Of a stretch of DNA of 64,000 nucleotides, positions 30,377 to 63,710 are shown in pieces. The notes beneath the pieces were generated by a model. The model was not told where the DNA came from. It saw only the letters and a program-made list of their open reading frames with translations, and searched no databases. Source of the DNA: Comamonas sp. (GTDB lineage: Bacteria > Pseudomonadota > Gammaproteobacteria > Burkholderiales > Burkholderiaceae_C); NCBI GenBank assembly GCA_015478895.1, contig JADMKK010000038.1, positions 1-64,000 of the forward strand. Direction: 5' to 3'. A program made the translations under genes and the position numbers. The first letter of the stretch is position 1, and every line of letters starts with the position of its first letter.

Positions 30377-30428
30377 TGGCAATGACCGAGGCTGCCCGGC
30401 GCTGCCTCGGTATTGTTTTTACAAAGTC

Positions 30429-30455
30429 AAAGGCAGCCAGTAGGCTGCCTTTTTT
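30429..30455 (+). terminator. Rho-independent terminator after glnA
   Basis: AAAGGCAGCC-AGTA-GGCTGCCTTTTTT. Confidence 0.9.
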
Positions 30456-30580
30456 GCAGGGCGTGTTTTCCAAGCGTGGCTGCTATCAAGGACAGCAAGA
30501 AATTCGCATTGCACAATAGCGCAGTGCACTGAAATGCTGTGAGCTTCTCAGTGGTCCCCGTCTTGTAAGGAAACACCAGC

Positions 30581-41234: not shown

Positions 41235-42059
41235 TCAGGCGGCTTGGAAGACCGGGCTGGGGGCTGGGTGTATGCAAACCGCCTGTTGCTGTGCCTGGTA
41301 GTGCGCTACTCCGCGCACCACATCGCCAATCACCAGCACGCTGGGGCTGCTCAGTTGCTGCGTCTGCATGGTGCTTGCCATGTGCTGCAAGGTGGTGATG
41401 GCGTGGCGCTGCTGGGGCTGGCTGGCGTTTTGAATGATGGCAACGGGGGTAGAGCCCGCAAGGCCACCTTGCTGCAGTGCATCGGCAATATGCGCTGCCG
41501 CTGCGACACCCATATAGACCACCAGCGTCAAACGTGCAGCATGGGCGGTTGCGGCCAGTTGTAGCCAGTCGGTCGGTGCGCCACCGGGCTTGGCATGGCC
41601 GGTGATAAAGATTACGCCCTGTGCATGGTCGCGGTGGGTCAGCGGCGCACCCAGGCTGCTTAAGCCCGCCAGCCCAGCCGTGATGCCGTTGATGATTTGT
41701 ACTTCGACGCCGCACGCGCGCAGGTGCTCCACTTCCTCTCCGCCCCGGCCAAAGATGAAGGGGTCGCCACCCTTGAGGCGCACGACCTGCTCGCCTTGCT
41801 GTACGGCCATCAGCATGAGCTTTTCAATGAAGGCCTGTGGAGTGCTCTGGCAGCCACCACGTTTGCCGACGTAGACGATGCGCGCCTTCGGGCTGGCATG
41901 CGCTACTACTTCAGGCGAAACCAGATCGTCCACCAGCAGCACCGTAGCGCGCTGGATGGCTTTGAGCGCCTTGAGGGTCAGGAGCTCAGGGTCGCCCGGG
42001 CCAGCGCCGACCAGTTTGCAGCTGCTGCCTGTGTAAGAAGTTGAAAGGTCGTAGGGCAT
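41235..42059 (-). CDS. cobA: Uroporphyrinogen-III C-methyltransferase (SUMT)
   Basis: CKLVGAGPGDPELLTLKA, VRLKGGDPFIFGRGGEE; ATG at 42059. Confidence 0.95.
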   Translation of the reverse strand: MPYDLSTSYTGSSCKLVGAGPGDPELLTLKALKAIQRATVLLVDDLVSPEVVAHASPKARIVYVGKRGGCQSTPQAFIEKLMLMAVQQGEQVVRLKGGDPFIFGRGGEEVEHLRACGVEVQIINGITAGLAGLSSLGAPLTHRDHAQGVIFITGHAKPGGAPTDWLQLAATAHAARLTLVVYMGVAAAAHIADALQQGGLAGSTPVAIIQNASQPQQRHAITTLQHMASTMQTQQLSSPSVLVIGDVVRGVAHYQAQQQAVCIHPAPSPVFQAA

Positions 42060-42070
42060 GGTGCGTTCCT

Positions 42071-44920
42071 TCAAAGGGTGGCTGCAGCGGTGGCAGATGT
42101 GTGTTGCACCAACTGGCGCAAAGTGGGCAGGCAGGAGCCGCATTGCGTGCCGCAGTGCAATTGGGTTTGCAGTTGCTGCAGGCGCTGGTCTGCGCTGCCG
42201 TGGCAATCTGCCAGTTGTGTGGTGATGGCCTGAGCATCCACCCCCCAGCAGCTGCATACCATCTGTCGTGCTTTGGGCGTGGCACTGGGCTGTGCATCCG
42301 GGTGCAGCAATTGCTGGCTGGACATGGTCACGGCCTGCTGCGCTTGCAGCAGCGGCACCAACCAGCTGGCCGCGCGCGTGTCACCGCACAGCAGCAGGGC
42401 TTCCAGCTGCATGCTCCCGGCATCGGTCTGGCGCAGTTGCAGCGTGCGGCTGAGTTGACGGCGCGGATCGGCATAGTGCAACAAGGAAGCACCCTGCAAA
42501 TGCAGAAGCCGCCGGATGTATTGCAGCACCTCGGCAGTCAGCGGTGTGCTGCTGGCGGCGCGCAGCAACACACCGCTGCGTGCTTGCGCCGTGTCGTGCA
42601 GCGCACCCGCGCTGCTGAATGGTACGCACGTAGCAAAGTCCAGCTGCGGCATCAGCGTGGCCAATTGCTGGCGCACGGTCAGTACTGCGTCAGGTGACAG
42701 CCAAGCGGCCGCGACCAGGCTCCAGGGCAGATCAACGGGTTCAACCCGCACTGGCACATGCTTGAGCTCAGGTTGTTTGGACTGTGGGCAGAACACCGGC
42801 GTGGTGAGCTGGTTGACACCTGCAATCGGTTGGCCCTGGCGGTCATGACCACCCAGGTATTCACTGCCCCAGTGCATGGCCATGAACAGCTGCGACAGGC
42901 CTTGCGCAGTGTCGGGCTGCACCGGCGCAATCAGTTCGCCATAGCGGCTTTCGACACGCACCAGTTGCCCCTCGTACAGACGGTGGCGCTGCATGTCCTG
43001 TGGGTGCATGTGCAATGCAGGTTCGGGCACATGGGCAAACAGGCGCGCCACCTGGCCGGTACGGCTCATTCCATGCCACTGATCGCGCAGGCGGCCAGTT
43101 GTGAGACTGAAAGGGCGCTGGGCGGTGCGCGCTTCAGCCACCGGTTGGAAGGCCTGCGCTGCAAAGCGTGCACGGCCATCGGGTGTGGGGAAGGTGCCGT
43201 CGGCATACAGCCGTGCAGGACCTTGGGTTGCCCCTGTCGGAAAAGGCCATTGCTGCGGGCCGCGCTGCTCTAGCAGCTCCCAGGACAGGCCCGTAATGTC
43301 CAGATCGCGCCCGCGTGTGCTGTCGCGGTGTTCATTCCATATGGCCTGTGCGCCAGCGCTGGCATTGTCGGTGTCATATGGAAAAAGGGAGGACTGGCCG
43401 GGGCGCAGCATGGCTTCAATCCGCTGCGCTACCTGCACGGCAATCTGCCAGTCATGGCGCGACTGAGCAACTGGAGGCAGAGCAGCCCGCACCCGCGATA
43501 TGCAGCGTTCGCTGTTGGTGACAGTGCCCAGCTTTTCCCCCCAGGTGGTGGCGGGCAGCAGCAGATCGGCAAAGGCTGTGGTCGCTGTCGTTGCAAAAGC
43601 ATCCTGCACGATGACGAACTCCGCTTTTTCCAGCGCACGGCGCACCAGTTGCTGGTCGGGCATGCTGTGGGCGGGGTTGGTACAGATGATCCACAGCAGC
43701 TTGATCTCGCCGCGTGCAGCGGCCTCAAACATTTCTACGGCACTCTTGCCGGGTGTGGCGGGCACGTCGACTACACCCCAGTGTGCAGCCACCTCAGCAC
43801 GGTGCAGGGGGTTGCTCATATCGCGGTGGGCGCTGAGCAGGTTGGACAGCCCCCCCACCTCCCGGCCGCCCATGGCATTGGGTTGCCCCGTCAGCGACAA
43901 CGGGCCGGCACCGGCCACACCGATCTGGCCTGTTGCCAGGTGCAGATTGATGAGCGCGGCATTGTTGACTGTGCCACTGCTGCTCTGATTCAGCCCTTGG
44001 CAGTAAAAACTCAGCGTGGGCGCGCGTTGCTCTGTGGTGCCCTGTGTGCCACCCAGAGCAAACCAGCGTGCTGCCAGCTGCAGATCTGCCAGTGCAATGC
44101 CACAGGTGCGTGCTACTTTGTCAGGTGTGGCATCGCGCACTAGTTCCTTGAGGGCGGTAAAGCCCGAGGTGTGCTGGTCAATATAGGCCTGATTGATCCA
44201 GCCCTCCCACAGCATCAGGTGCAGCATGCCGTGGTAGAGCAGCACATCGGTGCCAGGCTGCAGCGGCAGATACAGATCGGCCATTGCAGCTGTCTCGGTG
44301 CGGCGCGGGTCCACCACAATAATTTTGAGCGCCGGATTGGCCGCCCTGGCATCTTCGACACGGCGAAACAGCACGGGGTGTGCCCATGCGGTGTTGCTGC
44401 CGGTAATGAACAGGCACTGCGTGTGCAGCACATCGTCATAGCAGGCCGGTGGCGCATCGGCACCGAGTGTGCTTTTGTAGCCTGCGACAGCGCTGCTCAT
44501 GCACAGGCGCGAATTGGTGTCGATGTTATTGGTGCCCAGCAAGCCTTTGGTGAGCTTGTTGAAAACATAGTAATCCTCCGTCAGCAACTGGCCGCTGCCG
44601 TAAATGCCCACAGCATCTGGGCCGTGTTCACGCACCGTGCTGGCAATGCGCGTGGCGGCATGTTCCAGAGCATCATCCCAAACTAAAGCTTGCGGTGCTG
44701 CGCCGCGCTGCAGGCGCTGCATGGGTTGCAGCAACCGTGTCTGCTGGCCCAGCACGGGGTCTGCGCTGAGGTGCAAGGTGCTGCCCTTGGTGCACAGGCG
44801 ACCGTAGTTGGCAGGATGCTGCGGGTCACCGCGTACGCCAGTGATGCGCTGACCATCAGAGACAATCAGCACACCACAGCCAACACCGCAGTAAGGGCAC
44901 GTCGAGCGGGTTTCAGTCAT
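42071..44920 (-). CDS. nasA: Assimilatory nitrate reductase catalytic subunit, C-terminal BFD-like [2Fe-2S] domain
   Basis: CPYCGVGCGVL [4Fe-4S] motif, molybdopterin oxidoreductase, C-terminal CSCWGVDAQAI...CGTQCGSC. Confidence 0.94.
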   Translation of the reverse strand: MTETRSTCPYCGVGCGVLIVSDGQRITGVRGDPQHPANYGRLCTKGSTLHLSADPVLGQQTRLLQPMQRLQRGAAPQALVWDDALEHAATRIASTVREHGPDAVGIYGSGQLLTEDYYVFNKLTKGLLGTNNIDTNSRLCMSSAVAGYKSTLGADAPPACYDDVLHTQCLFITGSNTAWAHPVLFRRVEDARAANPALKIIVVDPRRTETAAMADLYLPLQPGTDVLLYHGMLHLMLWEGWINQAYIDQHTSGFTALKELVRDATPDKVARTCGIALADLQLAARWFALGGTQGTTEQRAPTLSFYCQGLNQSSSGTVNNAALINLHLATGQIGVAGAGPLSLTGQPNAMGGREVGGLSNLLSAHRDMSNPLHRAEVAAHWGVVDVPATPGKSAVEMFEAAARGEIKLLWIICTNPAHSMPDQQLVRRALEKAEFVIVQDAFATTATTAFADLLLPATTWGEKLGTVTNSERCISRVRAALPPVAQSRHDWQIAVQVAQRIEAMLRPGQSSLFPYDTDNASAGAQAIWNEHRDSTRGRDLDITGLSWELLEQRGPQQWPFPTGATQGPARLYADGTFPTPDGRARFAAQAFQPVAEARTAQRPFSLTTGRLRDQWHGMSRTGQVARLFAHVPEPALHMHPQDMQRHRLYEGQLVRVESRYGELIAPVQPDTAQGLSQLFMAMHWGSEYLGGHDRQGQPIAGVNQLTTPVFCPQSKQPELKHVPVRVEPVDLPWSLVAAAWLSPDAVLTVRQQLATLMPQLDFATCVPFSSAGALHDTAQARSGVLLRAASSTPLTAEVLQYIRRLLHLQGASLLHYADPRRQLSRTLQLRQTDAGSMQLEALLLCGDTRAASWLVPLLQAQQAVTMSSQQLLHPDAQPSATPKARQMVCSCWGVDAQAITTQLADCHGSADQRLQQLQTQLHCGTQCGSCLPTLRQLVQHTSATAAATL

Positions 44921-44949
44921 CTGCAAACTCCGTGGGAATGTTGGGCCGT

Positions 44950-45351
44950 TCAGGCTACGCTGGAGCAGCTTTGGCCGGAGCAGCGCCGTGCAGGGCCGGC
45001 GACAGGGCGAGTGAGATCCAGCGCAACGGTAGCCAGTTGATCGGCATCCATATAAACCTGTCCACCTTCGACTTTGACGTCGAAACGTGGCGTACAGCCT
45101 TCATCGGGCGCAGCCGCATGGCCGCTGTCCAGCGCAATGTTCCAGTTATGCATGGGGCAGGCCACACTGCGGCCAAACACCAGACCTTGAGAGAGCGGGC
45201 CGCCCTTGTGCGGGCAGCGGTCGAGTAGGGCAAACACTTCATTTTCCGCGTTGCGGAACACGGCGACATCCAGACCCTGGGGGCGTGCCACGCGGCGTGC
45301 GCCAAGCACGGGGATGTCTTCGATGGTGCAGATCAATTGCCAGAATGACAT
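44950..45351 (-). CDS. nirD: Nitrite reductase [NAD(P)H] small subunit
   Basis: Rieske-like DRCPHKGGPLSQGLVFGRSVACPMHNWNIAL. Confidence 0.95.
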   Translation of the reverse strand: MSFWQLICTIEDIPVLGARRVARPQGLDVAVFRNAENEVFALLDRCPHKGGPLSQGLVFGRSVACPMHNWNIALDSGHAAAPDEGCTPRFDVKVEGGQVYMDADQLATVALDLTRPVAGPARRCSGQSCSSVA

Positions 45352-45374: not shown

Positions 45375-47867
45375 TTAGACGTTGGCGGGAGCAGGGCTGC
45401 TGGCAGCGGTGCCGATGGGAATGACGCGTTCGAATTGGCGGGTGTCAACCGCTGCCTTGCTCAATTCAAACCAGGGGTCAGGCTCCCCATCCAGTGCAAA
45501 CTGCAGCTGTTCCCACAGTGACTTGCGGCCTGCGTGGTCTTCCAGAATGCGCTGCTTGATGTAATCCATGCCGACGCGCTCCAGGTAGTGCACCGTGCGC
45601 TCTAGGTACCAGCCTTCGAGGCGATACAGCTGCATGAAAGCGCCGGTGTACTCCAGCACTTCTTCAGCAGTTTTGAGTTTGGTAAAGAACTGCGCCACTT
45701 CAGTCTTGATACCCCCGTTGCCGCCAATGACCATTTCCCAGCCGCTGTCCACGCCGACAATGCCCACGTCCTTGATGCCAGCCTCGGCGCAGTTGCGTGG
45801 GCAGCCGCTGACGGCAAACTTGACCTTGTGCGGCGCGTACATGCGCCACATGGCACGTTCCAGATCCTTGCCCATCTGGGTGCTGTCCTGCGTACCCATG
45901 CGGCACCATTCACTGCCCACACAGGTTTTGACCGTGCGCAGCGCCTTGGCATAACCATGGCCGCTGGGCATGCCCAGATCGCGCCAGACTGCGGTCAGGT
46001 CTTCTTTCTTCACCCCCAGCAAATCGACGCGCTGGCCTCCTGTGACCTTGACGGTGGGAATCTGGTATTTGTCCACTACGTCGGCAATGCGGCGCAGCTC
46101 GTCGGCGCTGGTCTCGCCGGCCCACATGCGCGGGATCACGCTGTAGGTGCCGTCTTTCTGGATGTTGGCGTGGGCACGTTCATTGATCAGACGGCTCTGT
46201 GGATCGTCCTGCGCTTCCTGGGCCCAAGTGGAAATCAGGTAGTAATTCACAGCAGGGCGACAGGTGGCGCAGCCATTCGGAGTTTTCCACTCCAGCGCGG
46301 CAAATACATCGCTGATGCGCAGCAGATGCTGGTCACGAATGGCATCGCGCACCGCCTGGTGGCCGTGGGTGGTGCAGCCGCACACGGCCTTGGTCTTGGG
46401 GGCTGCCGAGTAATCGCCCCCTGCGGTAAACATGATGATCTGCTCGACCAGCCCGGTGCAGGAACCGCAGCTGGCGCTGGCCTTGGTGTGCTTGCGCACT
46501 TCGTCCAGTGTGAACAGTCCTTTGTCCTTGATGGCTTTGCAGATGCTGCTCTTGGTGACGCCGTTGCAGCCGCAGACTTCATCGCTGTCCTGCATGGCGG
46601 ACGCTTTGTTGTGGCCTTGGTGGCCGCTGTCACCAATGTTGGACTCGCCAAACATCAGGCGATCGCGGATGTCGGCAATCGAGCGTCCTTCGCGCAGCAG
46701 TTTGAAATACCAGCTACCGTCTACAGTATCCCCATACAGGCAGGCACCCACCAGCTTGTCGTCCTTGATGACCAGCTTCTTGTAGACGCCGCCTCCGGGC
46801 GCGAACGGGTCGCGCAGCACAATGGTTTCCGTATCGGCATCCCCTTGGAAGTTACCGGCTGAAAACAGGTCAATCCCCGTGACTTTGAGCTTGGTCGAGG
46901 TGAGCGAGCCGCTATAGCGGCCAATGCCCCATTCTGCGAGGTGGTTGGCCAGCACTTTGGCCTGCTCGAACAGCGGGGCGACCAGCCCGTATGCAATGCC
47001 TCGATGATTGGCACATTCACCCACGGCATAGATGCGCGGATCGGTCACGGTCTGCATGGTGTCACTCACCACAATGCCGTGGTTTACGTGCAGGTGCATG
47101 CGCTGGGCCAGCTCTGTATTGGGGCGTATGCCCACAGCCATTACCACCAGCTGAGCGGGCACTTCACGGCCGTCCTGGAAGCGTATGGCACGTACACGGC
47201 CACTGCCATCTCCCAGCAGCTCCTGTGTGTGGGCATTCATCAGGAACTGCAGGCCCCGGTCCTGCAAGGACTGCTGCAGCATCTTGCCGGCGACATCGTC
47301 AAGTTGGCGCTCCATCAGCCAGTCATTCACATGTACCACGTTGACTTGCATGCCGCGCTTGCTCAGGCCGTTAGCGGCCTCCAGCCCTAGCAGACCGCCG
47401 CCAATCACGACCGCATGGGAGAACTGCTGTGCCGCATCAATCATGGCCTGGGTGTCGGCAATGTCACGGTAGCCAATGACGCCTCCAAGTTGAGCGCCAG
47501 GCACGGGCAATATGAAGGGGTTGGAGCCGGTCGCCAGCACCAGCCTGTCATAGGTGGTAATCACGGTGTCACCGGCAGCGTTGGTGGCCGTCACGCTGCG
47601 GCGTGTGCGATCCACTTGTGTGACTTGGTATCCGGTGTGCAACATGATGCAGTTGTCCGTGTACCAGTTCCAGTCATTGAGCACAATTTCTTCGAGCGTT
47701 TGCTCACCGGCCAGTACGGGGGAGAGCAAGATGCGGTTGTAGTTAGGGTGCGGTTCGGCACCAAAAACGGTGATCTCGTAGTGATCGGGTGCAATCTTGA
47801 GCAGCTCTTCCAGCGTGCGGATGCCTGCCATGCCATTGCCGACCAAGACCAGTTTGGATTTCTTCAT
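45375..47867 (-). CDS. nirB: Nitrite reductase [NAD(P)H] large subunit
   Basis: N-terminal FAD/NAD domains, two BFD-like [2Fe-2S] domains, siroheme/4Fe-4S GCPRNCAEAGIKDVG. Confidence 0.97.
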   Translation of the reverse strand: MKKSKLVLVGNGMAGIRTLEELLKIAPDHYEITVFGAEPHPNYNRILLSPVLAGEQTLEEIVLNDWNWYTDNCIMLHTGYQVTQVDRTRRSVTATNAAGDTVITTYDRLVLATGSNPFILPVPGAQLGGVIGYRDIADTQAMIDAAQQFSHAVVIGGGLLGLEAANGLSKRGMQVNVVHVNDWLMERQLDDVAGKMLQQSLQDRGLQFLMNAHTQELLGDGSGRVRAIRFQDGREVPAQLVVMAVGIRPNTELAQRMHLHVNHGIVVSDTMQTVTDPRIYAVGECANHRGIAYGLVAPLFEQAKVLANHLAEWGIGRYSGSLTSTKLKVTGIDLFSAGNFQGDADTETIVLRDPFAPGGGVYKKLVIKDDKLVGACLYGDTVDGSWYFKLLREGRSIADIRDRLMFGESNIGDSGHQGHNKASAMQDSDEVCGCNGVTKSSICKAIKDKGLFTLDEVRKHTKASASCGSCTGLVEQIIMFTAGGDYSAAPKTKAVCGCTTHGHQAVRDAIRDQHLLRISDVFAALEWKTPNGCATCRPAVNYYLISTWAQEAQDDPQSRLINERAHANIQKDGTYSVIPRMWAGETSADELRRIADVVDKYQIPTVKVTGGQRVDLLGVKKEDLTAVWRDLGMPSGHGYAKALRTVKTCVGSEWCRMGTQDSTQMGKDLERAMWRMYAPHKVKFAVSGCPRNCAEAGIKDVGIVGVDSGWEMVIGGNGGIKTEVAQFFTKLKTAEEVLEYTGAFMQLYRLEGWYLERTVHYLERVGMDYIKQRILEDHAGRKSLWEQLQFALDGEPDPWFELSKAAVDTRQFERVIPIGTAASSPAPANV

Positions 47868-47901: not shown

Positions 47902-47952
47902 AAAAAAGGCGCCGTTCCTTGCGCAGATGGGGCTGCGAAGAAAGACGCCTTT
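47902..47952 (-). terminator. Leader attenuator hairpin upstream of nirB
   Basis: Minus strand AAAGGCG...CGCCTTTTTT with inner CGCAG-CCCCAT-CTGCG. Confidence 0.75.
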
Positions 47953-47980
47953 GTCTTGGGTTCCGGTCCACCGTTGCACC
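47942..47980 (-). ncRNA. Candidate ANTAR-target two-hairpin element in nirB leader
   Basis: P1 GGTGC-AACGGT-GGACC (47965-47980, one G-G mismatch), P2 AAGAC-AAAGGC-GTCTT (47942-47957); both hexaloops A1/G4. Confidence 0.7.
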
Positions 47981-48017
47981 TCACCCTGTAGCCAGCTCTG
48001 ACTACGGAAAAGAACAA

Positions 48018-48033
48018 TGCAATAGTTGTGCCA
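48018..48033 (-). promoter_or_regulatory. Sigma54 promoter of nirB operon
   Basis: Minus strand TGGCACA-ACTA-TTGCA, perfect -24/-12 match. Confidence 0.85.
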
Positions 48034-48084: not shown

Positions 48085-48119
48085 TGCACTGCATTGGTGC
48101 TATTGCACCAAGCTGGTCG
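48085..48119 (-). promoter_or_regulatory. Two tandem NtrC-like sites upstream of nirB
   Basis: Plus strand TGCACT-GCAT-TGGTGC (48085-48100) and TGCACC-AAGC-TGGTCG (48104-48119). Confidence 0.75.
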
Positions 48120-48141: not shown

Positions 48142-48172
48142 AAAAAAGCCACACGCATGGAGCATGTGGCTT
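48142..48172 (-). terminator. Rho-independent terminator after nrtD
   Basis: Minus strand AAGCCACATGC-TCCAT-GCGTGTGGCTTTTTT. Confidence 0.85.
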
Positions 48173-48190: not shown

Positions 48191-48991
48191 TCAGGCGGCT
48201 TTTTCGACATGCCCCTGGCGGGTGTAGAGAAAGTCGATCACCGCTTTGCGGCAGCGCTGGTATTCGCCGTTTTCCGCCAACTCCACCCGGTTGCGCGGGC
48301 GGCCTAGCGGGACGTGCAGCACTTCGCCAATAGTGGCGGCAGGCCCATTGGTGAGCATCACGATTTTGTCGGACAGCAGTACGGCTTCATCTACATCATG
48401 CGTCACCATGACCACCGTACTCTGGGTGCGTGCGACGATCTCCAGCAACTCATCTTGCAGCTTGGCGCGTGTGAGTGCATCCAGCGCACCAAACGGTTCG
48501 TCCATCAGCAACACCTGCGGCTCCATGGACAGGGCTCTGGCAATGCCCACGCGCTGCTTCATGCCGCCGGAAATCTCGCCGGGCCGCTTGGAAGCGGCAT
48601 GGCTCAGCCCCACCATTTCCAAGGCTGCATCGGTTCGCGCTTTGAGTTGGGCCTTGTTTTCCTGGCGACCAAACACACGCTCAACCGCCAGATAGACGTT
48701 GGCATAGCAAGTCAGCCAGGGTAACAGCGAGTGGTTCTGGAAGACCACGGCACGCTCAGGCCCTGGGCCTTTGATTTCGCGGTTCGCGCACAGCAATACA
48801 CCCGCCGTGGGCGTGGTCAGCCCCGCAATCAGATTGAGCAGGGTGGACTTGCCACAGCCCGAGTGGCCAATCAGGCTGACAAACTCACCCTTGGCGATGC
48901 TCAGGTTGATGTCGCTCAGCGCAGGAAACAGCCCCTTGCTGGTCTGGAAGGCCTGGTCGATGTTCTGGATCTGAATGAATTTGTCGCTCAT
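48191..48991 (-). CDS. nrtD: Nitrate ABC transporter ATP-binding protein
   Basis: Walker A GHSGCGKSTLLN, signature EISGGMKQRV. Confidence 0.93.
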   Translation of the reverse strand: MSDKFIQIQNIDQAFQTSKGLFPALSDINLSIAKGEFVSLIGHSGCGKSTLLNLIAGLTTPTAGVLLCANREIKGPGPERAVVFQNHSLLPWLTCYANVYLAVERVFGRQENKAQLKARTDAALEMVGLSHAASKRPGEISGGMKQRVGIARALSMEPQVLLMDEPFGALDALTRAKLQDELLEIVARTQSTVVMVTHDVDEAVLLSDKIVMLTNGPAATIGEVLHVPLGRPRNRVELAENGEYQRCRKAVIDFLYTRQGHVEKAA

Positions 48992-51256: not shown

Positions 51257-51305
51257 CAACGGCGTCCCGATCCATCCTGGCTTACAGGGGAAGGGGACGC
51301 CGTTG
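51257..51305 (-). terminator. Leader attenuator hairpin upstream of nrtA
   Basis: Perfect 12-bp arms CAACGGCGTCCC/GGGACGCCGTTG; weak U-tract immediately downstream (CGCTTTC), further U-rich TTTTGATTTTT. Confidence 0.65.
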
Positions 51306-51345
51306 TCCTTGAAAGTGCTTGACTCCAGACCGCCGTTGGCCGGGA
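51295..51345 (-). ncRNA. Candidate ANTAR-target two-hairpin element in nrtA leader
   Basis: P1 TCC-C-GGCC-AACGGC-GGTC-T-GGA (51324-51345), P2 GGAC-AACGGC-GTCC (51295-51308); identical A1/G4 hexaloops. Confidence 0.75.
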
Positions 51346-51360
51346 TTCGCTACCCTAGCA

Positions 51361-51376
51361 TGCACAAAGTGTGCCA
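51361..51376 (-). promoter_or_regulatory. Sigma54 promoter of nrtABD
   Basis: Minus strand TGGCACA-CTTT-GTGCA; GG-N10-GC. Confidence 0.8.
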
Positions 51377-51462: not shown

Positions 51463-52785
51463 TCAGGCTATGGGCTTGGCCAGCAAGTCCGCCATTGACA
51501 GCACTGCTTCCGCCACATCGATGATGCGGCGGTTCTGGCTCATGGCGGTCTGGCGCAGCAGCTTGTGGGCTTCACTTTCCGAGAGCTTCTGGTGGGTCAT
51601 CAACAGGCCTTTGGCTCGTTCCAGCGTTTTGCGCTCCGTCAGTGCCTGGCGCACGGTGTCCAGTTCATTGCGCATGGCCTGCAGCCTTTGCGACTGCTCC
51701 TGCACTACGCTGAGCACCGACATCTGCAGCGGTGGTGCCCAGTGGTTCTCTGCAGGCATGGCGCTGCGCATGGTGAAAAATTCGGGTACAGCATCCCCTT
51801 GCGGGTGCGCAGCGGGCATGGTTGATGGAAGTCGCGCAAGGCCAGTCTGTGCCAGATCCAGCTGTACTTCGCAGTCGCGCACCAAGGCTTGGGTCAACAA
51901 AGACTCAATGTGGTGCATGCCGTCCATGACATTGGTGCAGGCTTCAAACCATAACGGGCTCAACTCACGGGGCAATTGCGCACCATCGAGTGCGGTGCAC
52001 CCAATACGGCGCAGGCGCTCCACGGCGGTGACATCAGACCCTGTGGCGCTACAGCGCTGCCAGGCCTGCACCAGTGCTTCGGGGGCACAGTCAGCAAACA
52101 CCTGCATGCAGCGTTCCTGCGCCTCAATCAAATGCAGCCAGTGCTGCTGACTGTCTGTGTAGCTGACGCCTGCGCTGAACGTTGCAGCGCCTGTGGCGCG
52201 CTCCTGGCCTGCCAGTTCCTTGCCTTGCATGAAATGGAACATGGCCACCAGCAAGCGCGAAATACTGGGGTAGGTGGCGCTGTCAGCAGCCTCAAATACC
52301 ACATTCAGCAAGTCGGCAATCAGGTGGATATAGGCTTGGGTAGATGTGTGCACGCTGGCACCAAACGCCGAAACGCTGTGGCGCAAACCCGCCAGAGCAT
52401 CCAGTCCCTGCAGCACATAGGCAATGCGGCTGCACAGGCGTGCGCCTTGGCCGCCCTGCAGGCTGTCTACATCAAGCTGGGAGAGGGCTGTGCGCAAAGT
52501 GGCCATGTGCTGATCGCTGGTCTGGCGCTGCATATGCAGAGCATCGCGCCCCATTAAGCCTTCGCTGGCCAGAAGAATGCTGGACAGGCCACGCTCCTTT
52601 TGCAGCGCATGAATCAGTTCAGCCAAGGCGCGCACCAAACTGCTGGTGCGCAGCATTCGCTGCAGCTCGTTGATTTCACACTGGCGCGCGGCTGCCAAAA
52701 AATGCAGGGGGTTTTCCATGGATGCATCGTGGGTCAGGATAGACAGGCTTAGCAATTTCTGTGCCTTGCAGGCGGTGAACTTCAA
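51463..52785 (-). CDS. nasR: Nitrate-sensing NIT-ANTAR antiterminator
   Basis: NIT-like N-terminal region (LIHALQKERGLSSILLASEG) and C-terminal ANTAR (LTERKTLERAKGLLMTHQKLSESEAHKLLRQTAMSQNRRIIDVAEAVLSM). Confidence 0.92.
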   Translation of the reverse strand: MKFTACKAQKLLSLSILTHDASMENPLHFLAAARQCEINELQRMLRTSSLVRALAELIHALQKERGLSSILLASEGLMGRDALHMQRQTSDQHMATLRTALSQLDVDSLQGGQGARLCSRIAYVLQGLDALAGLRHSVSAFGASVHTSTQAYIHLIADLLNVVFEAADSATYPSISRLLVAMFHFMQGKELAGQERATGAATFSAGVSYTDSQQHWLHLIEAQERCMQVFADCAPEALVQAWQRCSATGSDVTAVERLRRIGCTALDGAQLPRELSPLWFEACTNVMDGMHHIESLLTQALVRDCEVQLDLAQTGLARLPSTMPAAHPQGDAVPEFFTMRSAMPAENHWAPPLQMSVLSVVQEQSQRLQAMRNELDTVRQALTERKTLERAKGLLMTHQKLSESEAHKLLRQTAMSQNRRIIDVAEAVLSMADLLAKPIA

Positions 52786-62612: not shown

Positions 62613-63710
62613 TTAAAAGCCAAAGTGGCGACGAATGCGCAGGCCAAAAATGGTGCCTGCAAAAGCCAGCGGTACCCAGATCCAGCCGTGGATGGAGCCC
62701 GTAGAAATGCCCGAGAACATGGCACCCACATTGCAACCAAACGCCAGGCGCGAGCTATAGCCCAGCACCAAGCCGGCGATCAAAGCCACCACCCATTGTT
62801 GGCGGCTTAAGGGCTTGGCGCTGGTGGGTGTGGAAGCACTGACCCACAGGGCACCCGCCAAAATACCGATGTTGGTGATGGAGGTGACATCCAGCAGCAC
62901 CGTCTCTGACAGGCGTGCAGCATTGCCGGGCTGCATCCAGAACCAGTTGCTCGACAGGTCGGCGACACCCGTGGCCGTCGCCACCTTGGCGGCCCATAGG
63001 CCAAAGCCGTAAACCACACCCCAAGGCTGGCCCGCAATCAGCAAGTTGGCTGTGGCCAGGAGCGCCAGCAACACCGCGCCCACCACCCATTTACGCACCA
63101 GCAATGGCTTGGCTGGAATGCCGGCCTGGAGGTTGGCGCGTTGGCAATAAAAGCCCACGCCCGCCGCCACCACAGCCAAACCTGCCAATGTGGCCACCAA
63201 AGCAACTTGCCAGCCCCAGGTGGTGACCAAACCCACAGGTTGGGTGCGACCCAGATCCAGCCACCAGCCCAAATGCACACTGCCCAAAAAGCTGCCAATG
63301 GCAAACACCGGCAAGATGGCCGCGTTCATCGGGATGCCCAAGCCGGCCTTGTACAGCGTGCCGCTGCCGCAGCCATCGGCAATTTGCATGCACAGGCCAA
63401 AGACGAAGGCGCCCACAATCAAGCTCACACTGGGCGGGCCTAAGGCGGCTGTCAATTCAGGAAAGCGGCCCAGCAGCGGCATCGCCAGGCAGGCAGCCAG
63501 AGCCAGCAAAATGAGCTGGCCGAAAACGCCGGAAGGATCTTTGTCCTCCACCAGCATGCGCCAGCCGGTGGTAAAGCCAAAGCGCTTGCCCGCCAGTACA
63601 GCGCCCAGCCCAATGCCAACCAGAAACAGACCGGCCTGGCGCGCGGACACGCTCCACAGCAGCCAGCCAAAAAATGCAGCCATGATGATGGCCAAAGGTA
63701 ATCGCTTCAT
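62613..63710 (-). CDS. YeeE/YedE-family sulfur-compound transporter-like protein
   Basis: Repeated C/G motifs GLCMQIADGCGSGTLYKAG and SSRLAFGCNVGAMFSGISTGSIHGW. Confidence 0.92.
   Translation of the reverse strand: MKRLPLAIIMAAFFGWLLWSVSARQAGLFLVGIGLGAVLAGKRFGFTTGWRMLVEDKDPSGVFGQLILLALAACLAMPLLGRFPELTAALGPPSVSLIVGAFVFGLCMQIADGCGSGTLYKAGLGIPMNAAILPVFAIGSFLGSVHLGWWLDLGRTQPVGLVTTWGWQVALVATLAGLAVVAAGVGFYCQRANLQAGIPAKPLLVRKWVVGAVLLALLATANLLIAGQPWGVVYGFGLWAAKVATATGVADLSSNWFWMQPGNAARLSETVLLDVTSITNIGILAGALWVSASTPTSAKPLSRQQWVVALIAGLVLGYSSRLAFGCNVGAMFSGISTGSIHGWIWVPLAFAGTIFGLRIRRHFGF

Follow-up and report, generated by a model that had tools for sequence, protein, structure and literature searches.

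Introduction

The nitrate assimilation genes of Comamonas raise the question of whether nirB, which follows the nrt operon, is expressed through a leader of its own and, if so, how this leader would be read. They were analysed in a window that corresponds to a whole stretch of 64,000 nucleotides (contig JADMKK010000038.1) from a Comamonas sp. genome of 3.2 Mb, the nirB gene of which has its best named match in Comamonas kerstersii (91% identity). The genes succeed each other on the minus strand in the order NIT-ANTAR protein, nrtA, nrtB, nrtD, nirB, Rieske small subunit, nitrate reductase and tetrapyrrole methylase. The features that matter here are the following:

51463-52785, minus strand: NasR homologue with NIT and ANTAR domains (Pfam, whole-genome domain search, match to 4AKK)
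48191-48991, minus strand: nrtD
48146-48172, minus strand: terminator of the nrt operon, 3' of nrtD
45375-47867, minus strand: nirB, assimilatory nitrite reductase, first gene 3' of the leader (Pfam)
44950-45351, minus strand: nirD-like Rieske protein (Rieske-type small subunit), 3' of nirB (Pfam)
42071-44926, minus strand: nitrate reductase of the molybdopterin type, downstream of nirB (Pfam)
41235-42257, minus strand: tetrapyrrole methylase, downstream of nirB (Pfam)

The genome encodes one RpoN and a sole ANTAR protein, the NIT-ANTAR NasR homologue located beside nrtA. This regulator matches PF08376 (177.6 bits) and PF03861 (65.2 bits), and 405 residues align with the solved NasR of Klebsiella oxytoca, 4AKK (E 7.6e-39). 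It is presumed to be the ligand of two leaders, those of nrtA and nirB. The residue aligned with Tyr164 of EutV, which stacks on loop G4, is a His (EAH) in the window NasR and a Trp (QAW) in that of K. oxytoca.

Architecture of the nirB leader

The gap between nrtD and nirB holds the nrtD terminator and the nirB leader. This leader includes the following elements:

48086-48100, minus strand: NtrC-type site GCAC-N7-GTGC (GCACCAATGCAGTGC), 67 nt 5' of the sigma54 element (sequence)
48018-48033, minus strand: sigma54 promoter TGGCACAACTATTGCA (sequence; kept in aligned relatives)
47988-48005, minus strand: hairpin P0, GUAGUC[AGAGCU]GGCUAC, a third ANTAR-type hexaloop, 7 nt 5' of P1
47965-47980, minus strand: hairpin P1, GGUGC[AACGGU]GGACC, with one G.G mismatch
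47942-47957, minus strand: hairpin P2 (antiterminator), AAGAC[AAAGGC]GUCUU (sequence, alignment of relatives)
47902-47952, minus strand: intrinsic terminator AAAGGCG...CGCCTTTTTT (RNAfold; alignment of relatives)

The sigma54 promoter, P1 with its single mismatch, P2 and the terminator had been proposed on the minus strand in the initial annotation, and each was recovered there between 48033 and 47902. The NtrC-type site (48100-48086) and P0 were absent from that description. The bare sigma54 pattern is not rare (eight occurrences with at most one mismatch against 4.8 expected), so that the weight of TGGCACAACTATTGCA rests on its conservation in relatives. Another sigma54-like site without mismatch, TGGCACCCACATTGCA, occurs at 62720-62735 of the plus strand. 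A sigma54 promoter lies 12 nt from the start that it serves; the RNA is predicted to start at about 48007, which would place P0 at its very 5' end. NtrC sites follow the pattern GCAC-N7-GTGC. Of 164 leaders, 84 have it in the 220 nt that precede the sigma54 element, where 0.009 occurrences would be expected per stretch.

The 5' arm of the terminator, AAAGGCG, is identical to the P2 loop plus its closing base, as the initial annotation had claimed, positions 47952-47946 being common to both structures. RNAfold gives the terminator (47952-47902) -46.8 kcal/mol, with a z score of -2.8. In the fold of the full leader the terminator beats P2, whereas in an RNA that ends after P2 all three hairpins, P0, P1 and P2, form. 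P1 is extended by an outer stem in which GGGU (47986-47983) pairs with ACCC (47961-47958).

This architecture is established by sequence, conserved structure, covariation, loop signature and gene context. In the aligned nirB leaders of the genus, the stems of P1, P2 and the terminator covary, and sliding the partners destroys the pairing. The terminator stem has 98.7% of its cells paired in relatives, with changes from G-C to A-U inside the stem. At the position of the P1 mismatch, a standard pair is also missing in 8 of 19 relatives. In these 19 related nirB leaders, the loop G4 of P0, P1 and P2 is invariant and each of the three hairpins is closed by a C:G pair in 19/19 cases. Nearly all relatives carry the leader 30-40 nt 5' of nirB, with the overlapping antiterminator.

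ANTAR ligands are described as pairs of hexaloop hairpins, the second of which overlaps a terminator (PMC3369931; PMC8164766). The window leader shows two six-base loops with A1 and G4 (P1 AACGGU, P2 AAAGGC), C:G closing pairs, linkers within 2-25 nt (PMC8164766), the overlap of P2 with an intrinsic terminator and an ANTAR protein in the same genome. It departs from this definition in the number of its hexaloop hairpins, three instead of exactly two: P1 and P2 of the initial annotation stand, but its count of two does not, P0 being present as well. The linkers between P0 and P1 and between P1 and P2 are both of 7 nt; the leader can thus be seen as two overlapping dual motifs, each of which fits the dual-hexaloop definition.

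The third hairpin, P0

In the 19 related nirB leaders, 98.2% of the cells of the P0 stem are paired and two-sided changes affect three of its six pairs, while the loop has G4 in 19/19 and A1 in 18/19. For example, P0 of C. kerstersii (GCAACC[AACGCT]GGTTGC) differs from that of the window (GTAGTC[AGAGCT]GGCTAC) by two compensatory pair changes, A1 and G4 being kept.

A blind test was applied to 160 leaders in which the sigma54 element and P2 are both clear. All their hairpins more than 42 nt 5' of the P2 loop with loops of 4 to 9 bases were collected, without being picked by their loop letters. Among the distinct upstream hexaloop hairpins of at least 6 bp, A1/G4 is found in 40 of 47, against 145/3131 (4.6%) in control DNA taken from these loci; no comparable bias was found for loops of 4, 5, 7, 8 or 9 nt in these 160 leaders. 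An upstream A1/G4 hexaloop hairpin is present in 90/160 real leaders, against a mean of 4.35/160 (maximum 9) after shuffling. The p-value of the loop bias, about 1e-44, ignores kinship and should not be taken at face value since the leaders share descent; a sounder figure is that 21 of the 28 distinct P0 loop sequences have A1 and G4. Several exceptions keep G4 with a G at position 1 (GAAGCA, GAAGCT, GAGGAT, GATGCA). In the EutV structure, the protein holds loop G4 and makes no contact to A1 (PMC8934654).

When P1 is also required, the 160 leaders divide into 86 with three hairpins, 70 with two and 4 with one, the triples including leaders from other families. The upstream hexaloops of leaders from other families of the order have A1/G4 in 10/10. 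The distance between the P0 and P1 loops is mostly 25-28 nt, and 35-40 nt in other families. Since 74 of the 160 leaders have no clear P0 of the AnnGnn type, P0 is not indispensable. Some nirB leaders have no room for it: counted from the start of the model, their sigma54 element is located at -29 versus about -47. In six loci (L050, L053, L060, L069, L079 and L096), several of them before nirB, the distance of this element to P1 is shorter by about 18-20 nt. P0 appears to be absent from such close-promoter leaders as if it were a removable module. Pairing among the loops of P0, P1 and P2 was considered and rejected by eye, AGAGCU, AACGGU and AAAGGC not being complementary.

The loop signature argues that P0 is probably a NasR site of some kind. 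The alternative that survives best, although it is rather unlikely, is that P0 is a mere 5'-end hairpin stabilising the mRNA, P1 and P2 doing all the ANTAR work as in an ordinary two-hairpin leader. A protective hairpin would be expected near the start of the RNA, and P0 indeed begins at about base 2 of the transcript; many leaders also have a P0 stem with a loop other than AnnGnn. Furthermore, three Comamonas genomes in which a domain search finds no ANTAR protein (G005, G012 and G027) retain both a sigma54 site and a hairpin at the 5' end immediately before nirB (L028, L021 and L022), with a stem at the place of P0, which suggests that the 5' stem may have a separate use of its own. But a protective stem has no need of an A1/G4 hexaloop, and this is nevertheless kept at the frequency given above. 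Moreover, it is exactly upstream of nirB in these three ANTAR-less genomes that the G4/AnnGnn signature of the P0 loop was not found, nor were P1, P2 and the terminator, a loss that fits loops kept for the protein. Protection of the 5' end therefore accounts for the P0 stem and not for its loop, and P0 may play both roles, the stem serving stability and the loop NasR. In one genome (G050) an ANTAR protein is present, yet P1, P2 and the terminator are absent before nirB.

The nrtA leader and the probable independence of nirB

The second ANTAR-type leader of the window precedes nrtA:

51258-51376, minus strand: nrtA leader, with a sigma54-like element, two hexaloops and an overlapping terminator

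Both its hexaloops are AACGGC, with 33 nt between the loops. The initial annotation considered that the nrtA and nirB leaders reach the same logic with different primary sequences. The shared logic holds, both having a sigma54-like element, AnnGnn loops and a terminator overlapping P2, but the sequences are not that different, as the P2 cores match at 11 of 12 bases (GACAAAGGCGTC / GACAACGGCGTC). The window contains the core GACAANGGCGTC two times, once in each of these leaders, against 0.03 occurrences expected. The nrtA leader differs by having two hexaloops, the first being placed at the promoter distance where P0 sits in triple leaders. The idea that P0 is a copy of the nrtA type was rejected, as the nrtA leader of the window has only two hexaloops. 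The nrtA leader of C. kerstersii resembles that of the window, and other Comamonas nrtA leaders have a single hexaloop well 5' of P2. Of the ATG codons of the nrtA reading frame, the first (51275) falls within the terminator, and translation probably begins at that of 51197.

In the genome itself, a covariance model of P1, P2 and the terminator, without P0 (R1), finds no leaders other than those of nirB and, weakly, nrtA; a match at 30389-30456 (17.1 bits) was rejected as a leader, being a terminator of the ordinary kind that has no hexaloops. Searches of the family and the order used the stricter filters of Infernal, and their counts are lower bounds: at least 81 leaders in at least 66 of 251 family genomes and at least 69 matches in at least 63 of 350 order genomes. 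The leaders of the family mostly lie between nasR and nrtA, or upstream of nirB. Among 80 related nirB loci, the leader is found directly before nirB in 32, elsewhere in the locus in 26 and in both places in 9. With 32 of 80 loci having their own, a separate nirB leader is real, common and not peculiar to the genome of the window.

These data bear on a second alternative, according to which the nrtA promoter drives nirB together with the nrt operon, the nirB leader being a leftover or a promoterless internal attenuator. The fact that nirB comes right after nrtD in the same orientation speaks for it, as does a genome with ANTAR proteins (G009, locus L020) in which nirB directly follows nrtD with neither leader nor terminator. 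In the window, by contrast, a terminator closes nrtD (48172-48146), as the initial annotation had indicated. The sigma54 element, the GCAC-N7-GTGC site, the stems and the loops are also conserved across the genus, including where nirB is not close behind nrtD. This alternative is thus very improbable. A second, separately promoted leader of the ANTAR type in front of nirB, as first put forward in the initial annotation, is the best reading, owing to its covarying architecture, the conserved overlap of P2 and terminator, the sole ANTAR protein being a NasR homologue and the terminator of the nrt operon.

Relationships with known leaders

Trained on 15 nirB leaders of the genus, the window sequence being one of the 15, a model gives the site 62.9 bits. 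At gathering scores, Rfam gives no match in the window or in the loci of ten relatives, so that known models do not cover this group of leaders. Below these scores, the Rfam P11 and narK models, which are independent of the model above, both match the two leaders of the window, at the right place and on the right strand. P11 (RF00625, NalA), with a gathering score of 70, reaches 20.8 bits, and the leader is not assigned as a member; narK RNA (RF03032) reaches 24.0 against 43.2 bits.

NalA, the nirBD leader of Pseudomonas, depends on sigma54 and NtrC and is bound by NasT (PMC12830290; PMC3973561). The nirB leader of the window shares with NalA/P11 its location before nirB, a sigma54 promoter with NtrC control, predicted in the window, hexaloops and an AAAGGC P2 loop inside an overlapping terminator. 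They differ by the protein, NasT with NasS for NalA (PMC12830290) and presumably a one-component NIT-ANTAR NasR in the window. Rfam P11 looks like this NalA leader, since one of its loci (L226) ends in an apparent nirB start. It is filed in Rfam as an sRNA gene and not as an ANTAR leader. The two P11 loci that were read (L225 and L226) each have three AnnGnn hexaloop hairpins (AACGTG, ACAGAG and AAAGGC for L225), and the third hexaloop is therefore not confined to Comamonas. No description of a third hairpin in ANTAR leaders was found in the literature searched, although an earlier account for NalA of Pseudomonas is possible. The narK RNA model extends from promoter to P2, with a loop AAAGAC, and its middle part fails to align with the leaders of the window.

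The nasF leader of K. oxytoca is comparable in its NIT-ANTAR regulator, nitrate as signal, A1/G4 hexaloops, C:G closing pair and overlap of P2 with the terminator (PMC7496416). NasR binds the nasF P1P2 RNA only with nitrate or nitrite, two hairpins being enough for full affinity (PMC7496416). By description, nasF has a two-hairpin ligand and a single nas operon, whereas in the window there are two separate leaders, of which that of nirB has three hairpins. In Enterococcus faecalis, the eut leaders share the dual hexaloop antiterminator logic, and their protein, EutV, holds G4 (PMC8934654), but they belong to an ethanolamine two-component system with two hexaloops per site.

It is very unlikely that the leader RNA, once terminated, acts mainly as a small RNA in its own right, such as a sponge of NasR: the EutX/Rli55 sponge for EutV is a precedent (PMC8934654), RNAs of this kind from Pseudomonas were at first recorded as an sRNA, P11 (RF00625), and three loops would hold more protein, but the leader lies just before nirB with an overlapping antiterminator in nearly all relatives, and a sponge has no need of P2 inside the terminator.

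Proposed mechanism and significance

The locus very probably carries a nitrate-responsive antitermination leader of nirB, involving NtrC and sigma54, NasR and, probably, docking on P0 and P1, the action of NtrC and NasR and the response to nitrate being inferred from work on NasR, EutV and NalA. Under a shortage of fixed nitrogen, the RNA would be started at about 48007 by NtrC and sigma54. Without nitrate, the terminator (47952-47902) would fold and transcription would end before nirB. With nitrate, the NIT-ANTAR NasR would gain the ability to bind AnnGnn hexaloops and, by holding P2, would keep the P2 loop bases out of the terminator, so that RNA polymerase would read through into nirB and the gene of the nitrate reductase. 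The hairpin that emerges first from the polymerase, P0, would serve together with P1 as a docking site from which NasR reaches P2. In the EutV structure, the dimer touches one hexaloop at a time; it is recruited by one hairpin and then moves on to that of the antiterminator (PMC8934654). This model of upstream recruitment followed by transfer (PMC8934654), together with P0 being made first, favours a docking role for P0, whose binding by NasR we infer.

How ANTAR proteins use their hairpins is disputed between one dimer on two hairpins and the EutV model of one hexaloop at a time. Natural leaders with two hexaloops (nrtA) and with three at even spacing (nirB) that face one NasR in one cell would provide a direct test of these views. 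Moreover, both Rfam P11 and narK RNA look like ANTAR leaders, and their recognition as such would aid annotation. This kind of leader is known; what is new is the presence of three putative docking loops, here and in many relatives, versus the two described. The chances appear evenly balanced that leaders of nitrate assimilation in proteobacteria include a functional, undescribed three-hexaloop class, in which NasR or NasT would be loaded on the first hairpin and passed to the antiterminator, raising or sharpening the response to nitrate.
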